Source of the DNA: Planctomycetales bacterium
GTDB lineage: Bacteria > 4484-113
Reading direction: 5' to 3'
Assembly (NCBI GenBank): GCA_030606285.1
Contig: JAUWGS010000004.1
Coordinates: 73,713 to 137,712, forward strand
DNA length: 64,000 nucleotides
Each line of letters starts with the position of its first letter. The first letter of the stretch is position 1. The position numbers and the translations under genes were made by a program. Of this stretch, positions 36,220 through 63,290 are shown one piece after another. The notes beneath the pieces are model-generated. The model saw only the letters and a list, made by a program, of their open reading frames with translations. It did no database searches and was not told the origin of the DNA.

Positions 36220-36558
36220 GTGAATGTCCTATTTAAGAATAAAAAGCTCCGCAAGTCCTGTAACTCGCTTAAAACAGCGCAGCGGAGGTGGGGCACGGAG
36301 TGCGGGAAGCTGGTTATGCAGCGACTAGACGACATCAATGCAGCAGACTCTTTAGCAATACTGCTGAAACTGCCTTACGCGCACCCTCACCCCTTATACG
36401 GGGATAGAAAAGGACAGTATTCTATTGATGTCAAACAGCCATATAGGTTACTCTTCAGAATTACCGATGATCCTATCCCGCGAAAAGAGGATGGGGGAGT
36501 AGATATCGATAAGGTAACATCTGTAATGATACTTGAGGTGGCAGATACACATGGATAA
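36220..36558 (+). CDS. higB: HigB-like mRNA-interferase toxin
   Basis: 112 aa, RelE/HigB fold. The opening NVLFKNKKLRKSCNSLKTAQ, then KLVMQRLDDINAADSLAILL and GQYSIDVKQPYRLLFRI, match host-inhibition (HigB) toxins, which cleave mRNA at the ribosome. GTG start. The antitoxin gene begins inside its last codons (8-nt overlap). The toxin precedes the antitoxin, as in the higBA arrangement. Base composition is visibly AT-richer than the flanking genes, suggesting transfer. Confidence 0.82.
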   Translation: MNVLFKNKKLRKSCNSLKTAQRRWGTECGKLVMQRLDDINAADSLAILLKLPYAHPHPLYGDRKGQYSIDVKQPYRLLFRITDDPIPRKEDGGVDIDKVTSVMILEVADTHG

Positions 36559-37648
36559 GCAGATTTCAAACGAGTACAGCCCTGACTATGTATCGCCTCC
36601 AGGCGATACTTTGCAGGATGTTATTGATGCTCTAGGAATGTCCCAAGCCGAACTAGCGCGTCGAATGGGCACTTCGCCTGAAGTCATCAATAGAATCATC
36701 AAGGCGGAGAATCCGATTACTGAAAATACTGCGATGAGCCTGCAGCGGACAGTAGGTGTACCAGGTTCCTTTTGGCTGAACCGTCAATCCCGCTATGACA
36801 TGTACCTTGCACAAGAAGTTGAAACGGTTCGATTAAAGGAGAACCTTAAATGGTTGAAGCGGTTTCCAGTCAATGAAATGGTGACACGCGGATGGCTGAA
36901 ACGTCGATCCTCTAAAGTCGATCAAATGAAAGAGCTTCTTGAGTTCTTCGGCGTAGCTTCCCCAGATGTTTGGAGGATCTACTATGGTCAACTGGAAGCA
37001 GCTTTCCGGAAGCCGAAGCCTCGCAAATGGTCATTGGAAGCTCTTGTAGCATGGTTACGCAAAGGGGAATTGGAAGCGCAAAGAATAGTATGCCAGAAGT
37101 ACAACCAGCAGGCTTTCCGAACGAGAGTTTATGACCTAAGACGCTTGACAGTTAAGCCCTTAAAGAACGTGTACCAAGAGATTGTGTCTGGCTGCGCGCT
37201 TTGCGGGGTCGTGGTGGTAATCGTAGAGGAGCTACCGAAGGCAGGCGTTTCTGGTGCAACTAGGTGGTTAGCACCGAAAAAGGCTCTAGTGCAACTAAGC
37301 ACCCGCTATAAAACCGAGGACCAGTTCTGGTTCACCTTCTTTCACGAGGCGGCTCATGTTTTGGAGAAGGGTGCCAAGCGAAGCATCATACTGGACGGAG
37401 ATGACTGTGGAAAGAAGAACGGGGACAGTGCCGCTAACGAGTTTGCGGCAAATCTCCTTATACCTAAGAAACACCTCACCCGGTTTCTGCGTAATGTAAC
37501 GCCTCCGTATATCAGCGAGAGAGCGGTCCGCAAGTTCGCACGAGAGCTGGCAATCCATCCTGGTATTGTAGTGGGCAGGCTTCAAAGGATGAAAGCGATT
37601 CCCTACACGCATTTTAAAAAGCTTCGGCGTAACGTGGAGCTTAACTAA
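36551..37648 (+). CDS. higA: HigA-like antitoxin fused to an ImmA/IrrE metallopeptidase domain
   Basis: 365 aa, ATG 36551 with GAGGTGG (36535-36541) upstream. Residues ~10-80 are an XRE-type helix-turn-helix (MSQAELARRMGTSPEVINRI) followed by SFWLNRQSRYD as in HigA. The C-terminal half carries an IrrE/ImmA zinc site FFHEAAHVLE (HExxH) plus ANEFAANLLIP, which supplies the third ligand. In such proteins the peptidase is thought to regulate the protein or a partner by cleavage. Much longer than HigA alone (~95 aa). Forms an operon with higB. Confidence 0.85.
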   Translation: MDKQISNEYSPDYVSPPGDTLQDVIDALGMSQAELARRMGTSPEVINRIIKAENPITENTAMSLQRTVGVPGSFWLNRQSRYDMYLAQEVETVRLKENLKWLKRFPVNEMVTRGWLKRRSSKVDQMKELLEFFGVASPDVWRIYYGQLEAAFRKPKPRKWSLEALVAWLRKGELEAQRIVCQKYNQQAFRTRVYDLRRLTVKPLKNVYQEIVSGCALCGVVVVIVEELPKAGVSGATRWLAPKKALVQLSTRYKTEDQFWFTFFHEAAHVLEKGAKRSIILDGDDCGKKNGDSAANEFAANLLIPKKHLTRFLRNVTPPYISERAVRKFARELAIHPGIVVGRLQRMKAIPYTHFKKLRRNVELN

Positions 37649-47297: not shown

Positions 47298-47369
47298 GAG
47301 CCATTAGCTCAGTGGTAGAGCATCGGACTTTTAATCCGAGTGTCGCAGGTTCGAATCCTGCATGGCTCG
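47298..47369 (+). tRNA. tRNA-Lys (anticodon TTT)
   Basis: Acceptor GAGCCAT/ATGGCTC; anticodon stem TCGGA/TCCGA with loop CTTTTAA; T-arm GCAGGTTCGAATCCTGC; discriminator G. CCA not encoded. Followed 5 nt later by tRNA-Glu. Confidence 0.95.
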
Positions 47370-47374
47370 CTTTC

Positions 47375-47447
47375 GGCCCCATCGTCTAGTGGACTAGGAC
47401 ATCACTCTTTCAAGGTGAAAACGCGGGTTCAATTCCCGCTGGGGCTA
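47375..47447 (+). tRNA. tRNA-Glu (anticodon TTC)
   Basis: Acceptor GGCCCCA pairs with TGGGGCT (the first pair is G-U). The anticodon loop CTTTCAA gives TTC. T-arm GCGGGTTCAATTCCCGC; discriminator A. CCA not encoded. The last 22 nt (47426-47447) recur exactly at 48112-48133. Confidence 0.93.
47426..47447 (+). repeat. 22-bp direct repeat, left copy (3' end of tRNA-Glu, attL-like)
   Basis: Covers the T-loop, the 3' T-stem and the acceptor end of tRNA-Glu. The identical 22 bp recur at 48112-48133 in the same orientation; flanking bases differ on both sides. Confidence 0.85.
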
Positions 47448-47561: not shown

Positions 47562-47786
47562 TTACAGGAGGTCTATCAGCTCCTCTCTGGTTATGCCCGC
47601 CTGCTTGAGGATTTCCGTCAGCGTTCCCTGCGGCAAATCCCTCTTGTGGTATGGGACGACAGTTCTGCGCTTCGTCTCAGGATGGTAATAGACGTGATGG
47701 CTTCCTCGAACTCGATCCAGCACGAATCCCCGCTTCTTCAGAATCCCGATGACCTTATCGGCAGTAAGTGAAGGCAGCTTAGGCAT
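47562..47786 (-). CDS. hicA: HicA-type mRNA interferase toxin
   Basis: 74 aa, a dsRBD-like fold typical of HicA. The catalytic histidine lies in GSHHVYYHPETKRR, followed by TVVPYHKRDLPQGTLTEILKQ (split by the usual KR loop) and AGITREELIDLL. HicA cleaves mRNA. It starts inside the last codons of hicB (8-nt overlap), so expression is coupled with the antitoxin. Lies within the tRNA-flanked element. Confidence 0.93.
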   Translation of the reverse strand: MPKLPSLTADKVIGILKKRGFVLDRVRGSHHVYYHPETKRRTVVPYHKRDLPQGTLTEILKQAGITREELIDLL

Positions 47787-48012
47787 GGGTTTCTACGCTG
47801 AGTGAATACTCCAGAGTGTCTTCGTCTGTCGGTATGTCCTCGCTGTGTTTACGGAGACTCTCGATATATGCCGTGATAGCTTCCCGCGCCATCTCGATGG
47901 CTTCCTCCACAGTGTCGCCAAAGGTTACGCAACCTGGCAGAGTCGGAACAGTTACCGTATAACCGCCCTCCGGCTCCTTCTTCAGAAGAATTTTGTATCG
48001 GACTGACTTCAT
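47779..48012 (-). CDS. hicB: HicB-type antitoxin
   Basis: 77 aa with the partial RNase H-like fold: YKILLKKEPEGGYTVTVPTL, then PGCVTFGDTVEEAIEMAREA and ITAYIESLRKH. It lacks a long C-terminal DNA-binding domain, so promoter control by this protein is uncertain. AAGGTGA precedes the ATG; a TACAAT -10 box is at 48032-48037 (reverse strand). The antitoxin gene is first, unlike the classical hicAB order. Confidence 0.92.
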   Translation of the reverse strand: MKSVRYKILLKKEPEGGYTVTVPTLPGCVTFGDTVEEAIEMAREAITAYIESLRKHSEDIPTDEDTLEYSLSVETHA

Positions 48013-50109: not shown

Positions 50110-50598
50110 TCAGCTCGATTGGCTTTCGAAAAGCTCTATCACTCCAAGTATCTGAGCTTTTTTATCCGCCACAAGGCTGTAACCGTCCAATCCCGGGTCC
50201 TTCCGCAAGTAGCCTTTTCTCGCTAGTTCCTTTAGTAGATTTTGAACGCGTCTTTTGGGTTTCCCGCCAGACAACTTATGAACTATCACATCGAGCTTCA
50301 CTTGATTCCCTCCGTAATACTGTTTCTTGTGCATCTTGACGAGGAGATTCGCTTCGTCCGCATTAAGTCCATATTGATCCCGTAAGCGTTCAACTGCAGG
50401 CTGAGCTTCTGCCTCTTCCGGCATGTCTACCTCGATTCCCCTCTTCTTCAAAACGTCCACTACTGCTCCTAGAACTCCCTGCTCTACATCAGGCCAAACC
50501 GCCGAGAAGTCGTTTGTGAAGGCTGCACACTCCAGAAGCAGCTCGAAAGGATGCATTCTTAGTTTCCTAGCCGCCTCAATCAGGTCCGTACCGGGCAT
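50110..50598 (-). CDS. Winged-helix-like protein, third gene of the RadA-like operon
   Basis: 162 aa, unrecognised. An N-terminal helical part (IEAARKLRMHPFELLLECAA) is followed by a C-terminal region that reads like a winged helix (VKLDVIVHKLSGGKPKRRVQ, then NLLKELARKGYLRKDPGLDG). It overlaps the upstream coiled-coil gene by 23 nt, so it is surely cotranscribed. The putative DNA-binding fold suggests a regulator or a DNA-contacting subunit. Confidence 0.65.
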   Translation of the reverse strand: MPGTDLIEAARKLRMHPFELLLECAAFTNDFSAVWPDVEQGVLGAVVDVLKKRGIEVDMPEEAEAQPAVERLRDQYGLNADEANLLVKMHKKQYYGGNQVKLDVIVHKLSGGKPKRRVQNLLKELARKGYLRKDPGLDGYSLVADKKAQILGVIELFESQSS

Positions 50599-51637
50599 AC
50601 AGCGCCTCCTCTATCTCATGAGGTAATTGGCCGAAACGAAAACTCACTTCCTTACCTTCTACCTCACTATATGCGCCCTCCTTTTTTGATGGGTCTTCCT
50701 CCGTTTCTAAACCGAGGAATCGCTCTTCCGAAAAGAATTTTACGTTTGAGGGTTTTTCAAGCCACAAGAAAATATCGAATAACAGTCTTAAGTAATGTTG
50801 AACTCTCGGGCTCTGCTGGTCGTGCTGAAGCTGTTCCCAAACCTTCGTCGGCACAGGAACGAATAGAACATACCGTCCACTACTGGTATTGTGCCAGCTG
50901 TAAAGCTCAATTGGCTCCTCAGCATCCTCCTCACTCACATCTCGACTCAGAGCACCTGGAAACTGCTTCTCAATTCTCCTTTCGACCTCTTGCATTTGAG
51001 ATTTAAGAACTTGCGCTACTGACACCGCCTGAGGGTCGATTTCGCTAAGGAACCTCTTGCACTGCTCCCAATCCTTCTTAAGCTGCTGAACCTCAGCGTC
51101 TTCGCTTGAGGCCTTTTCGAATTTGCGTTTAGCTAGCAGAATTCGCTGACGGTCGCTAGCTCCACCGAGAATTGTGGTTTCTGTTGCGTCAAGATACGTG
51201 CCTAATGCTCCCCTACATTCTTCCTTATGCCTTTCTTCTATCGCTGATTTTTCCAGATCAAGCTGGTCCTTTTCTTTAGTACGTGAGCTAATCTCCCTCT
51301 GCAAATCATCATAGAGGCTCCTGCAGCTGCTAACTCCATCTTCACGCTCACTCAAAGATTCTCTAGTCTTTTCAAGGTGCGTTTCTAATTTCTGACGTTT
51401 CGCGGTAAGCTCACAAATCTCATCATTAACGCGGTCGATGTTCTCGGCGATTCTGTCAAGTTCGCTCCTAAACTGCTCCCCCTCCTGTAGGGCATACTTC
51501 AGTTCCTGGGCGCGCTGCCTGCGCTGCTCGATTAGTGCGCTAAGGTCTGTCTCGAACTTGGTCAAGCGCTTGCCGATTTCCCTTAGCACGTCTCTTGACT
51601 GCAAGGTTTCCTGTTTCAGTATCTCACTGAGATTCAT
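50576..51637 (-). CDS. Coiled-coil protein, second gene of the RadA-like operon
   Basis: 353 aa. Residues ~15-165 are an almost continuous charged coiled coil (EIGKRLTKFETDLSALIEQR, LDRIAENIDRVNDEICELTA, QKLETHLEKTRESLSEREDG). A short linker is followed by a C-terminal globular domain (about 215-353) with IELYSWHNTSSGRYVLFVPV and HYLRLLFDIFLWLEKPSNVK. The layout is reminiscent of SMC-like arms, but no ATPase motifs are present; the ATPase is the preceding gene, with which it overlaps by 4 nt (ATGA). Not matched to any known family. Confidence 0.7.
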   Translation of the reverse strand: MNLSEILKQETLQSRDVLREIGKRLTKFETDLSALIEQRRQRAQELKYALQEGEQFRSELDRIAENIDRVNDEICELTAKRQKLETHLEKTRESLSEREDGVSSCRSLYDDLQREISSRTKEKDQLDLEKSAIEERHKEECRGALGTYLDATETTILGGASDRQRILLAKRKFEKASSEDAEVQQLKKDWEQCKRFLSEIDPQAVSVAQVLKSQMQEVERRIEKQFPGALSRDVSEEDAEEPIELYSWHNTSSGRYVLFVPVPTKVWEQLQHDQQSPRVQHYLRLLFDIFLWLEKPSNVKFFSEERFLGLETEEDPSKKEGAYSEVEGKEVSFRFGQLPHEIEEALYARYGPD

Positions 51638-52932
51638 TTCGTCTTGTCCTCGGAATTAGACGGGATATTCTCGCGCTTTAGGTCAGTCCACGTCTTGTAT
51701 AATACTTCCTCCAAGGTATCACAGCCAACAAGACTACAGGTTTTTCCGATTTCAGGTCGGAGAATCCGTGCTGTTTCGCCGGCGCAGAACACCTTAAGCT
51801 CCTTTCCGAGTTTACCGTCTTTTATCGTTTCCCATAAGTCTTGGACTAAGTCATCACCGACTGGACGCACCGACCGCAGCAAGTCTAGTTCGCCTATATA
51901 GAGGAATGTCGAAGGGATTTCTCTCTGGAGATAGGAACTGAGCAAAGCCATAGCGAGCGCCAAGTCAATGACTCTCTTGTAGAACTTCCCCCCCGGCAGA
52001 TTACACTGGATACTGTAGGAAAGGTCAGCGACATCATCCATATCCGGAATTCCATTGATCGCATGCAAAAGACGCTGTATCTCATCCCTAGGCAAGTTGG
52101 GCGCTGTTATTCGTCCCCTTGTTCCGTACGTGGGTAATGTCACAACAGCTTGTGCTTCGGCTCTGAGAAAGTCCCGCCCGATGAAAGTACGGGCAACTCC
52201 GCCCTGGACTTCGGCAAAGCGGGAAATCCGTAGCATTGTCGTGTTAGGGTCCATCTCGAGCGCTATGGGACGAAAAACAGCGGGTCCATATCTGTTCTTG
52301 GGAACGAAAAGCGGTCGGTAGACAAACGCTTTCTTCATATACATCACGCAATCCACCTTGTGCTCGAGTGTCTTGGGCCCTGCTATTGCGCCCGATTTCG
52401 TGACATGCGTGACCAAGACTGGGGTGAGATTGTTGGCCTTGCAGTTATCGCAGAAGTCGTATATGTGACGATACTGCTTACTTGCCAAGGGCGACACACC
52501 TCTTCCCTGAAGCGAATCAATAACGATCAGCTTCACTCCGTGATATCTCCCACCTTTAGCCAGTACCTGACGAGACAAGTAATTTGGCAGTTCCTTCATG
52601 TCGTAAGTCCATTCTTCGGGGTTAACATTCTCGAATGCCCTTTTCACGTCAGAGGAGGGCCATTCTCGGCCCATCAATCTTGCACGATTCAACAAGTCGG
52701 CCGAGCTCTGCTCGGTCAGGATATATAGGGAAGGAATCCCTCGTCTGCCTAAGTCAAGCGCAATTTGGATTGCCAACGTGGACTTCCCTATACCCGGCTC
52801 ACCCGACAGCAAATATATGCCGCCCGCGACGAGCTTGCCAATCCTGTGCTTCAGCCAGGCTAAATCGTCAGAAAGCGGCACCTCGTTGTAGGCTACATCC
52901 TGAACGCCTAAGAGCCCCTTGCCCTTTCCCAT
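51634..52932 (-). CDS. RadA/Sms-like ATPase without the zinc finger, first gene of the operon
   Basis: 432 aa. It begins directly at the RecA-like core: Walker A GEPGIGKS (44-51), Walker B LIVIDS (135-140), THVTKSGAIAGPKTLEHKVD (175-194) and the RadA-specific KNRYG motif (212-216; KNRFG in typical RadA). The C-terminal Lon-like domain is retained (ALLSSYLQREIPSTFLYIGE, then VRPV). The four-cysteine zinc finger that opens canonical RadA is absent. RadA promotes branch migration; here linkage to a coiled-coil and a wHTH-like gene suggests a specialised paralogue. AT-richer than the flanks. Confidence 0.82.
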   Translation of the reverse strand: MGKGKGLLGVQDVAYNEVPLSDDLAWLKHRIGKLVAGGIYLLSGEPGIGKSTLAIQIALDLGRRGIPSLYILTEQSSADLLNRARLMGREWPSSDVKRAFENVNPEEWTYDMKELPNYLSRQVLAKGGRYHGVKLIVIDSLQGRGVSPLASKQYRHIYDFCDNCKANNLTPVLVTHVTKSGAIAGPKTLEHKVDCVMYMKKAFVYRPLFVPKNRYGPAVFRPIALEMDPNTTMLRISRFAEVQGGVARTFIGRDFLRAEAQAVVTLPTYGTRGRITAPNLPRDEIQRLLHAINGIPDMDDVADLSYSIQCNLPGGKFYKRVIDLALAMALLSSYLQREIPSTFLYIGELDLLRSVRPVGDDLVQDLWETIKDGKLGKELKVFCAGETARILRPEIGKTCSLVGCDTLEEVLYKTWTDLKRENIPSNSEDKTK

Positions 52933-52955
52933 GTAAAAACCTCCCAGCGGTCCTG

Positions 52956-52984
52956 AGTATACTCTTGTTGAGTGGTGCTGTCAA
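52956..52984 (-). promoter_or_regulatory. Consensus promoter of the RadA-like operon
   Basis: Reverse strand TTGACA (52984-52979), exactly 17 bp, TATACT (52961-52956). A GGGAGGT ribosome-binding site (52940-52946) precedes the ATG at 52932. Confidence 0.78.
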
Positions 52985-62590: not shown

Positions 62591-62926
62591 TCAGAAGCCC
62601 AGTACTTGCTTTAGTTCTCTCTCCAGGCTGCGAAGGTCGTCTTGGGACAGCCGGCCCAGTTTCCTTTCGACGAAAGATAAACTCACCGTCCTCAGCACAG
62701 ACGTAGCTCGCGAAGGATAGTTAAGGCCTGCTGCTTCCCAATCCTTTAGTATCCAGTCTCCGGTGAAGTGTACGTCTATCCTGGACGTAATCATGCCGAG
62801 AACAACCCTCCGGCGGTTCTCGTTATAGTGATCGGTGCTGATGACATATGCTGGGCGGCGCTTGCTGCCAGTCCCATCTGAGTATTCGTACTCGGTGAGA
62901 ACGATGTCTCCGCGCCTATAACTCAT
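62591..62926 (-). CDS. MazF/PemK-like toxin
   Basis: 111 aa from ATG 62926. The MazF beta-barrel opening SYRRGDIVLTEYEYSDGTGS is followed by KRRPAYVISTDHYNENRRRV and SVLRTVSLSFVERKLGRLSQ, with the ...DLRSLERELKQVLG helix at the end. MazF toxins are sequence-specific RNases. The ATG lies inside the last codons of the upstream HTH gene (11-nt overlap), the usual antitoxin-first arrangement, although the partner is an HTH protein instead of a MazE swapped-hairpin protein. Confidence 0.83.
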   Translation of the reverse strand: MSYRRGDIVLTEYEYSDGTGSKRRPAYVISTDHYNENRRRVVLGMITSRIDVHFTGDWILKDWEAAGLNYPSRATSVLRTVSLSFVERKLGRLSQDDLRSLERELKQVLGF

Positions 62927-63290
62927 CGTAGGATTCGTCCAGAGGGTTTTCCCAGAGCTCAGCAAGGATTGGGTCGGATCTCCCGTTCAGGCGCGAGGGC
63001 GCCAGGTCGCGGTCTGCCAGCAACGCCACATAGTGCAGTGCGTCCTTGAGCCGTGGATTAAAGTTGCCCCGCAGCCAGCGCTCGTAGGTTGAATGGCTTA
63101 TTCCTAGCGTTGTGACCGCAAACACCTCGCGGGATACGCTGAGTTCCTTGCGCCAAGCTTCCAGCTCTCTGAGCAGGCCGTCCAGCAGTGGAAGCATTGG
63201 TACGCGGGAGTGCAAGGTACCTGCGGCCTTTGTGGACCGTGTCTCGACGCTCTCGGAACTTCCGCCGGTTTGCTTATTCGCTTCGTCCAT
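62916..63290 (-). CDS. HTH-domain antitoxin-like partner of the MazF toxin
   Basis: 124 aa from ATG 63290; the frame is open further but the upstream part covers promoter and palindrome DNA. Residues ~35-75 read like an XRE/Cro helix-turn-helix (LEAWRKELSVSREVFAVTTL, then GISHSTYERWLRGNFNPRLK). The acidic C-terminal tail DPILAELWENPLDESYDEL is typical of toxin-binding antitoxin ends. A TATAAT box (63298-63303, reverse strand) lies 7 nt before the ATG, which suggests leaderless translation. A 24-bp palindrome lies just upstream. Confidence 0.7.
   Translation of the reverse strand: MDEANKQTGGSSESVETRSTKAAGTLHSRVPMLPLLDGLLRELEAWRKELSVSREVFAVTTLGISHSTYERWLRGNFNPRLKDALHYVALLADRDLAPSRLNGRSDPILAELWENPLDESYDEL

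Follow-up and report, generated by a model that had tools for sequence, protein, structure and literature searches.

A RadA-like motor without a zinc finger in a planctomycete operon: a candidate module with variable partners, from a family found mostly among defence genes

What is a RadA-like ATPase doing in an operon with a coiled-coil protein and a small wHTH-like protein? The DNA analysed here (the window, 64,000 nucleotides) is part of a 2.3-Mb assembly that is 91% complete. An earlier note on it had picked out three genes overlapping by 4 and 23 nt, and had proposed that they form a system of undescribed composition, possibly acting in DNA transactions or in defence. The open reading frames do have this layout, on the minus strand at 50110-52932, and their products are here called P1, P2 and P3. 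The features of the locus are listed below; L063 is a second genome that carries the same three genes.

52956-52984, minus strand: predicted sigma-70-like promoter, TTGACA-17-TATACT, 11 of 12 consensus matches
52940-52945, minus strand: ribosome-binding site GGGAGG, 7 nt ahead of the P1 start codon ATG, from sequence
51634-52932, minus strand: P1, RadA-like ATPase, 432 aa, zinc finger absent (TIGR00416, E=1.3e-30)
52777-52803, minus strand: Walker A motif GEPGIGKST of P1 (aa 44-52), from sequence
52285-52299, minus strand: KNRYG motif of P1 (aa 212-216), holding the piston lysine and arginine finger of RadA (roles from PMC11612176); K and R invariant in 13 of 13 family members
51853-52203, minus strand: Lon-like domain of P1 (about aa 244-360), by alignment to S. 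pneumoniae RadA (5lkm/8rxc) and canonical RadA
51634-51637, minus strand: P1/P2 overlap ATGA, translational coupling; the corresponding overlap in L063 is GTGA
50576-51637, minus strand: P2, 353 aa; coiled coil at about aa 3-158, a short helical region, then a C-terminal alpha/beta region; homologue at L063:11251-12342
50576-50598, minus strand: P2/P3 overlap, 23 nt; 20 nt in L063
50110-50598, minus strand: P3, 162 aa, wHTH-like C-terminal half; homologue at L063:12323-12805

The trio is flanked by a convergent oligopeptidase F gene (pepF), which ends 6 nt away, and by nadA. No significant RNA structure was found 3' of P3. The promoter, previously called near-perfect, is a good match to consensus, but it is the best of three such sites in the region, where shuffles lead one to expect 2.1, and alone it is weak evidence.

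The GC content of the trio is 0.48-0.51, compared with about 0.55-0.60 in its surroundings, and its GC3 is 0.50-0.58, compared with a mean of 0.71 (sd 0.068) for the 47 other long open reading frames of the window. The operon is thus AT-richer than its neighbours, which the earlier note had taken as a sign of transfer. Horizontal transfer is supported by this composition, by the absence of the operon from the six nearest genomes, and by a patchy spread over phyla. Another low-GC3 gene of the window (0.527), encoding an XRE plus ImmA/IrrE-type protein at 36533-37648 on the plus strand, was possibly also acquired.

P1 had been described as keeping the RecA core, the KNRYG motif and the Lon-like domain of RadA and lacking its N-terminal zinc finger, and the alignments bear this out. 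P1 starts past the region where canonical homologues carry a C4 zinc finger; the finger is absent from all 13 listed members of the P1 family (defined below), and present in the canonical proteins examined. Against the RadA/Sms model TIGR00416, P1 scores 106.6 bits, far under the cut-off of 403, and the other family members score 110-136 bits.

Active-site residues were numbered on S. pneumoniae RadA, and their roles taken from a published study (PMC11612176). During recombination RadA moves along DNA as a hexameric ring, in which E124 is catalytic, E125 coordinates Mg, K251 is the piston, R253 is the arginine finger, R191 contacts the complementary strand, and T215, K216 and G222 of RL1 form the main DNA-contact loop (PMC11612176). 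The Walker A residues K101 and S/T102 are kept in all 13 family members, as are E124, D170, H213, T215/K216/G222, H228, K251, R253 and R400. E125 is replaced by Gln in all 13, R191 is replaced by Tyr in 12 (P1 included) and by Phe in the other, and R301, K320 and N329 are not kept. The signature of the family is a Gln after the catalytic Glu, the sequence RPLFVPKNR(F/Y)GP, and the lack of a finger. The conservation of the catalytic and DNA-loop residues makes it most likely that P1 hydrolyses ATP and translocates on DNA, and that its DNA contacts are altered.

Single-protein pattern scans of the viral and genome collections gave nothing, and an alignment including canonical RadA was needed to reveal the family. 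The alignment scan identified a relative, 41% identical to P1, on viral contig L051. With this pair as query, at least eight further relatives were found in named genomes (L063-L070), with tblastn values from 1e-144 to 1e-67, the next match being at 1e-33. Whole-genome searches added three members, one among 343 genomes in the phylum of L063 and two among 218 in the phylum of L065; the 209, 217 and 177 genomes searched in three other phyla held no member beyond the seeds. Members scored 577-634 bits with the family profile, compared with at most 150 for other RadA proteins in the planctomycete search. In a midpoint-rooted tree with 19 canonical RadA sequences, the 13 listed family proteins form one clade with support of 100/100. 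On the basis of its score, its signature residues and this separate clade, we reject the idea that P1 is the sole ordinary RadA of its organism, which the earlier note had allowed for.

The hosts include Planctomycetes, Acidobacteria, Deltaproteobacteria/Myxococcota, Aminicenantes, Omnitrophota, Acidimicrobiaceae and one ANME-1 archaeon, together with one phage contig. Since they span several bacterial phyla and an archaeon, the P1 family most likely spreads horizontally. A phage-encoded gene was also considered and rejected, because L051 is the sole carrier of the family among 2.9 million viral contigs. All the P1 matches examined in plasmid and phage records were canonical RadA with the finger.

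The family is rare, and apparently undescribed. PADLOC has no model for the trio or for the P1 family; family members gave only weak matches to mad8 and PDC-S73, mainly over the P-loop, and P3 gave none. No description of the family or of the trio was found in the open literature, as distinct from subscription papers and preprints. The view that no system of this composition has been described thus holds provisionally, and the trio does not fall into a characterised PADLOC system.

Among the listed loci, the whole trio occurs in one other genome, Planctomycetes ADurb.Bin069 (L063), with the same order and overlaps. Its P1 is about 52% identical to that of the window, its P2 homologue is 25% identical over the full length (phmmer 1.4e-10) and its P3 homologue is 26% identical (phmmer 2.5e-3), so that both companions are conserved next to the ATPase. 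The two trio P1 proteins are sisters in the tree (100/100), and the trio is therefore one branch of the P1 family. As there are only two trio genomes, the P2 and P3 families are each represented by a single pair of distantly related proteins.

Residues 1-160 of P2 have a hydrophobic period of 3.5 residues and contain no proline or tryptophan, a periodicity that fits the long coiled coil (about 150 residues) predicted earlier. The C-terminal region, predicted to be novel, has no relative in Pfam, NCBIfam, PHROGs or PDB. For P3, the matches are indeed to wHTH models (HTH_36, E=0.015), but all are sub-threshold, and it is probably a wHTH protein. AlphaFold models built from two-sequence alignments have a mean pLDDT of 58 for P2 and 48 for P3, the latter being unusable as a structure; a Foldseek search with the low-confidence P2 model returned nothing below 0.001. 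Neither P2 nor P3 shows a recognisable nuclease motif or any other effector motif. Matches to P2 in 385 genomes were discarded as coiled-coil noise, the best of them (L027) being an unrelated coiled-coil protein.

Other family members have another partner. In five loci (L065, L066, L188, L197 and L198) an HNH-like protein of 152-165 aa is encoded 3-27 nt downstream of the motor gene, with matches to HNH_5 (1e-4), HNH (1.6e-3) and the HNH region of IscB (9e-8). In the L188 protein, the motif His is replaced by Glu. The proposal of ATPase, coiled coil and wHTH protein as a fixed system is too narrow, because other branches of the family have other partners. The constant part is the RadA-like motor, and the partners vary.

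The P1 family lies mostly among defence genes. AbiEi/AbiEii is directly upstream of the trio in L063. L051 has a type IIG restriction-methylase, an ImmA-type regulator, a DUF4411 protein and the RadA-like motor in a row (L051:941-7248); phage replication genes are present on the same contig. A type IIG restriction-methylase is next to the motor in L064 as well; there (L064:5758-8958) the IIG gene is broken into several frames and the motor gene is intact. Type I HsdR is found near the motor in L066, L067 and L068, the last also having HsdS and a REase-ARP nuclease, and L069 has Hachiman HamA and HamB (1610 bits) with an EcoRI-type methylase. L198 has an LmuB-like ATPase (1e-40), an OLD-like nuclease and a DNA methylase, as well as a weak Hjc-like protein beside the motor. 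A NucS-like nuclease is nearby in L197, and a SNF2 helicase with NOV_C in L188. In L065 the only such neighbour is a Mre11/Rad50-like pair, and in L070 (ANME-1) no defence neighbour is visible.

In the window no defence gene adjoins the trio. The only one near is a HicA/HicB pair at 47562-48012 (minus strand) and 47298-47447 (plus strand), which is one gene (a peptidase) away and adjoins tRNA-Lys and tRNA-Glu genes. A PemK/MazF-like toxin gene (2.6e-12) is present at 62591-62965 on the minus strand.

As a control, the same query proteins were applied to 72 ordinary RadA-type loci of similar length. With the query's own locus left out, shared neighbours were found in 7 of 12 family loci compared with 1 of the 72 (p=1.3e-6), and without the HNH partner in 4 of 12 compared with 1 of 72 (p=0.001), values that are indicative, as the queries were taken from the family loci, some of which are of recent common descent and not independent. 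Defence islands gather unrelated genes, and proximity is not the same as function. The earlier suggestion of defence is favoured by the neighbours for the P1 family as a whole. For the trio itself, where AbiE adjoins the copy in L063 and only HicAB lies near that of the window, defence is a conjecture.

We hypothesise, with confidence that is evenly balanced, that P1 serves as motor in a module which has spread horizontally and which acts on invading DNA, its role in defence being read only from gene neighbourhoods. P1 would form a hexameric ring round DNA and translocate by ATP hydrolysis, as RadA does, and the loss of the finger would uncouple it from host recombination. P3 could serve to recognise DNA or to load the motor; P2, with its coiled coil and new C-terminal region, could connect the motor with the recogniser. 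In five other members the HNH protein would take the partner position, giving motor-plus-nuclease pairs; the trio might block or remodel foreign DNA, or recruit a separate nuclease. More tentatively, the family may represent an undescribed anti-MGE class, with a finger-less RadA-type ring motor and exchangeable partners (an HNH branch and a coiled-coil/wHTH branch), distributed across bacteria and archaea. The most economical reading is that a motor of RadA type was recruited into conflict with mobile DNA.

Several other explanations need to be weighed against this. P1 might have replaced a lost canonical RadA in its lineage, with P2 and P3 as new regulators of ordinary repair. A search for canonical radA elsewhere in the window's genome, as the earlier note had proposed, found none at 91% completeness, which would fit such a replacement. 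But the six closest genomes compared, which range from the same genus to the same order, have neither canonical radA nor P1, and the absence of radA in the order is therefore independent of the trio operon, so P1 is not simply the organism's RadA. The whole order (G000-G006, completeness 77-94%) seems to be without canonical RadA/Sms, and two genomes of the same class (G007 and G009) carry it; to our knowledge, RadA/Sms is nearly universal outside such exceptions. Canonical RadA scoring above the cut-off accompanies the family member in six of 11 other host genomes, which, with the substituted DNA-contact residues, also speaks against replacement and makes it highly improbable. Alternatively, P1 might work alone, with P2 and P3 not as subunits of a complex but as unrelated passengers or as a pair of regulators transcribed along with it. 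Near most listed family members there is no homologue of P2 or P3, and identity of the two proteins between the trio genomes is low (25-26%). This remains improbable to our minds, since the gene order, the 4-nt coupling of P1 and P2 and the overlap of about 20 nt between P2 and P3 have been kept even though P1 identity is only about 52%.

In the main rival reading, mobile DNA carries the module as an accessory for recombination or repair, a branch-migration motor with P3 as loader and P2 as tether, which helps to integrate or repair incoming DNA and which is found in islands because islands are integrated elements. The known work of RadA is indeed branch migration in recombination (PMC11612176), and the phage replication genes on the L051 contig, the Mre11/Rad50-like genes in L065 and the weakly Hjc-like protein next to the L198 motor all point the same way. 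However, the finger and R191 are lost in every listed member, the neighbours are mainly restriction and abortive-infection genes and not integrases or recombinases, and the family is almost absent from viral contigs. We consider this explanation unlikely, and continue to prefer the capture of a RadA-type motor for conflict with mobile DNA.

If that is true, the branch-migration motor of RadA has been taken over for this purpose, like the MCM-type motor in BrxL. Because the P1 family is small, has clear limits and is easily recognised, it lends itself to a direct test of the idea, most simply with the motor-HNH pairs. The trio in addition offers two protein families, P2 and P3, without known relatives.

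It remains to compare the module with known systems. P1 shares with RadA/Sms the RecA-type core, the catalytic residues, the KNR(F/Y)G motif, the Lon-like domain and the main DNA-contact loop. It differs in having no C4 zinc finger, in the changes E125 to Gln and R191 to Tyr/Phe, in not keeping R301, K320 and N329, in its sub-cut-off score and separate clade, and in its operon partners and defence surroundings. A phage family of 420 positions with no assigned function, phrog_26214, matches P1 158-414 (E=1.1e-21), and may be a phage-borne RadA-like family.

Lamassu and Wadjet also combine a long coiled coil and an ATPase in one operon, and an LmuB-like gene lies beside the L198 motor, but P1 is not an SMC ATPase. 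P2 matches SMC models through its coiled coil only and has no Walker A motif. As P2 lacks an ATPase head, the comparison with SMC-like complexes drawn earlier is weak, and an SMC complex was rejected. Septu (PtuA/PtuB) and other ATPase-HNH pairs resemble the HNH variants of the family in placing an ATPase next to an HNH protein, although the PtuB match is only about 1e-4; unlike Septu, P1 is RadA-class with no PtuA match, and the window trio has no HNH gene. BrxL of BREX is an ATP-driven ring on dsDNA with a Lon/RadA-like domain that acts in phage defence (PMC12707154). It has an MCM-like N-terminus and an AAA+ core, whereas P1 has a RecA core; P1-P3 match no BREX model, and the immediate neighbours of the trio encode PepF and NadA. 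By analogy, BrxL would nevertheless be the nearest functional model for P1.
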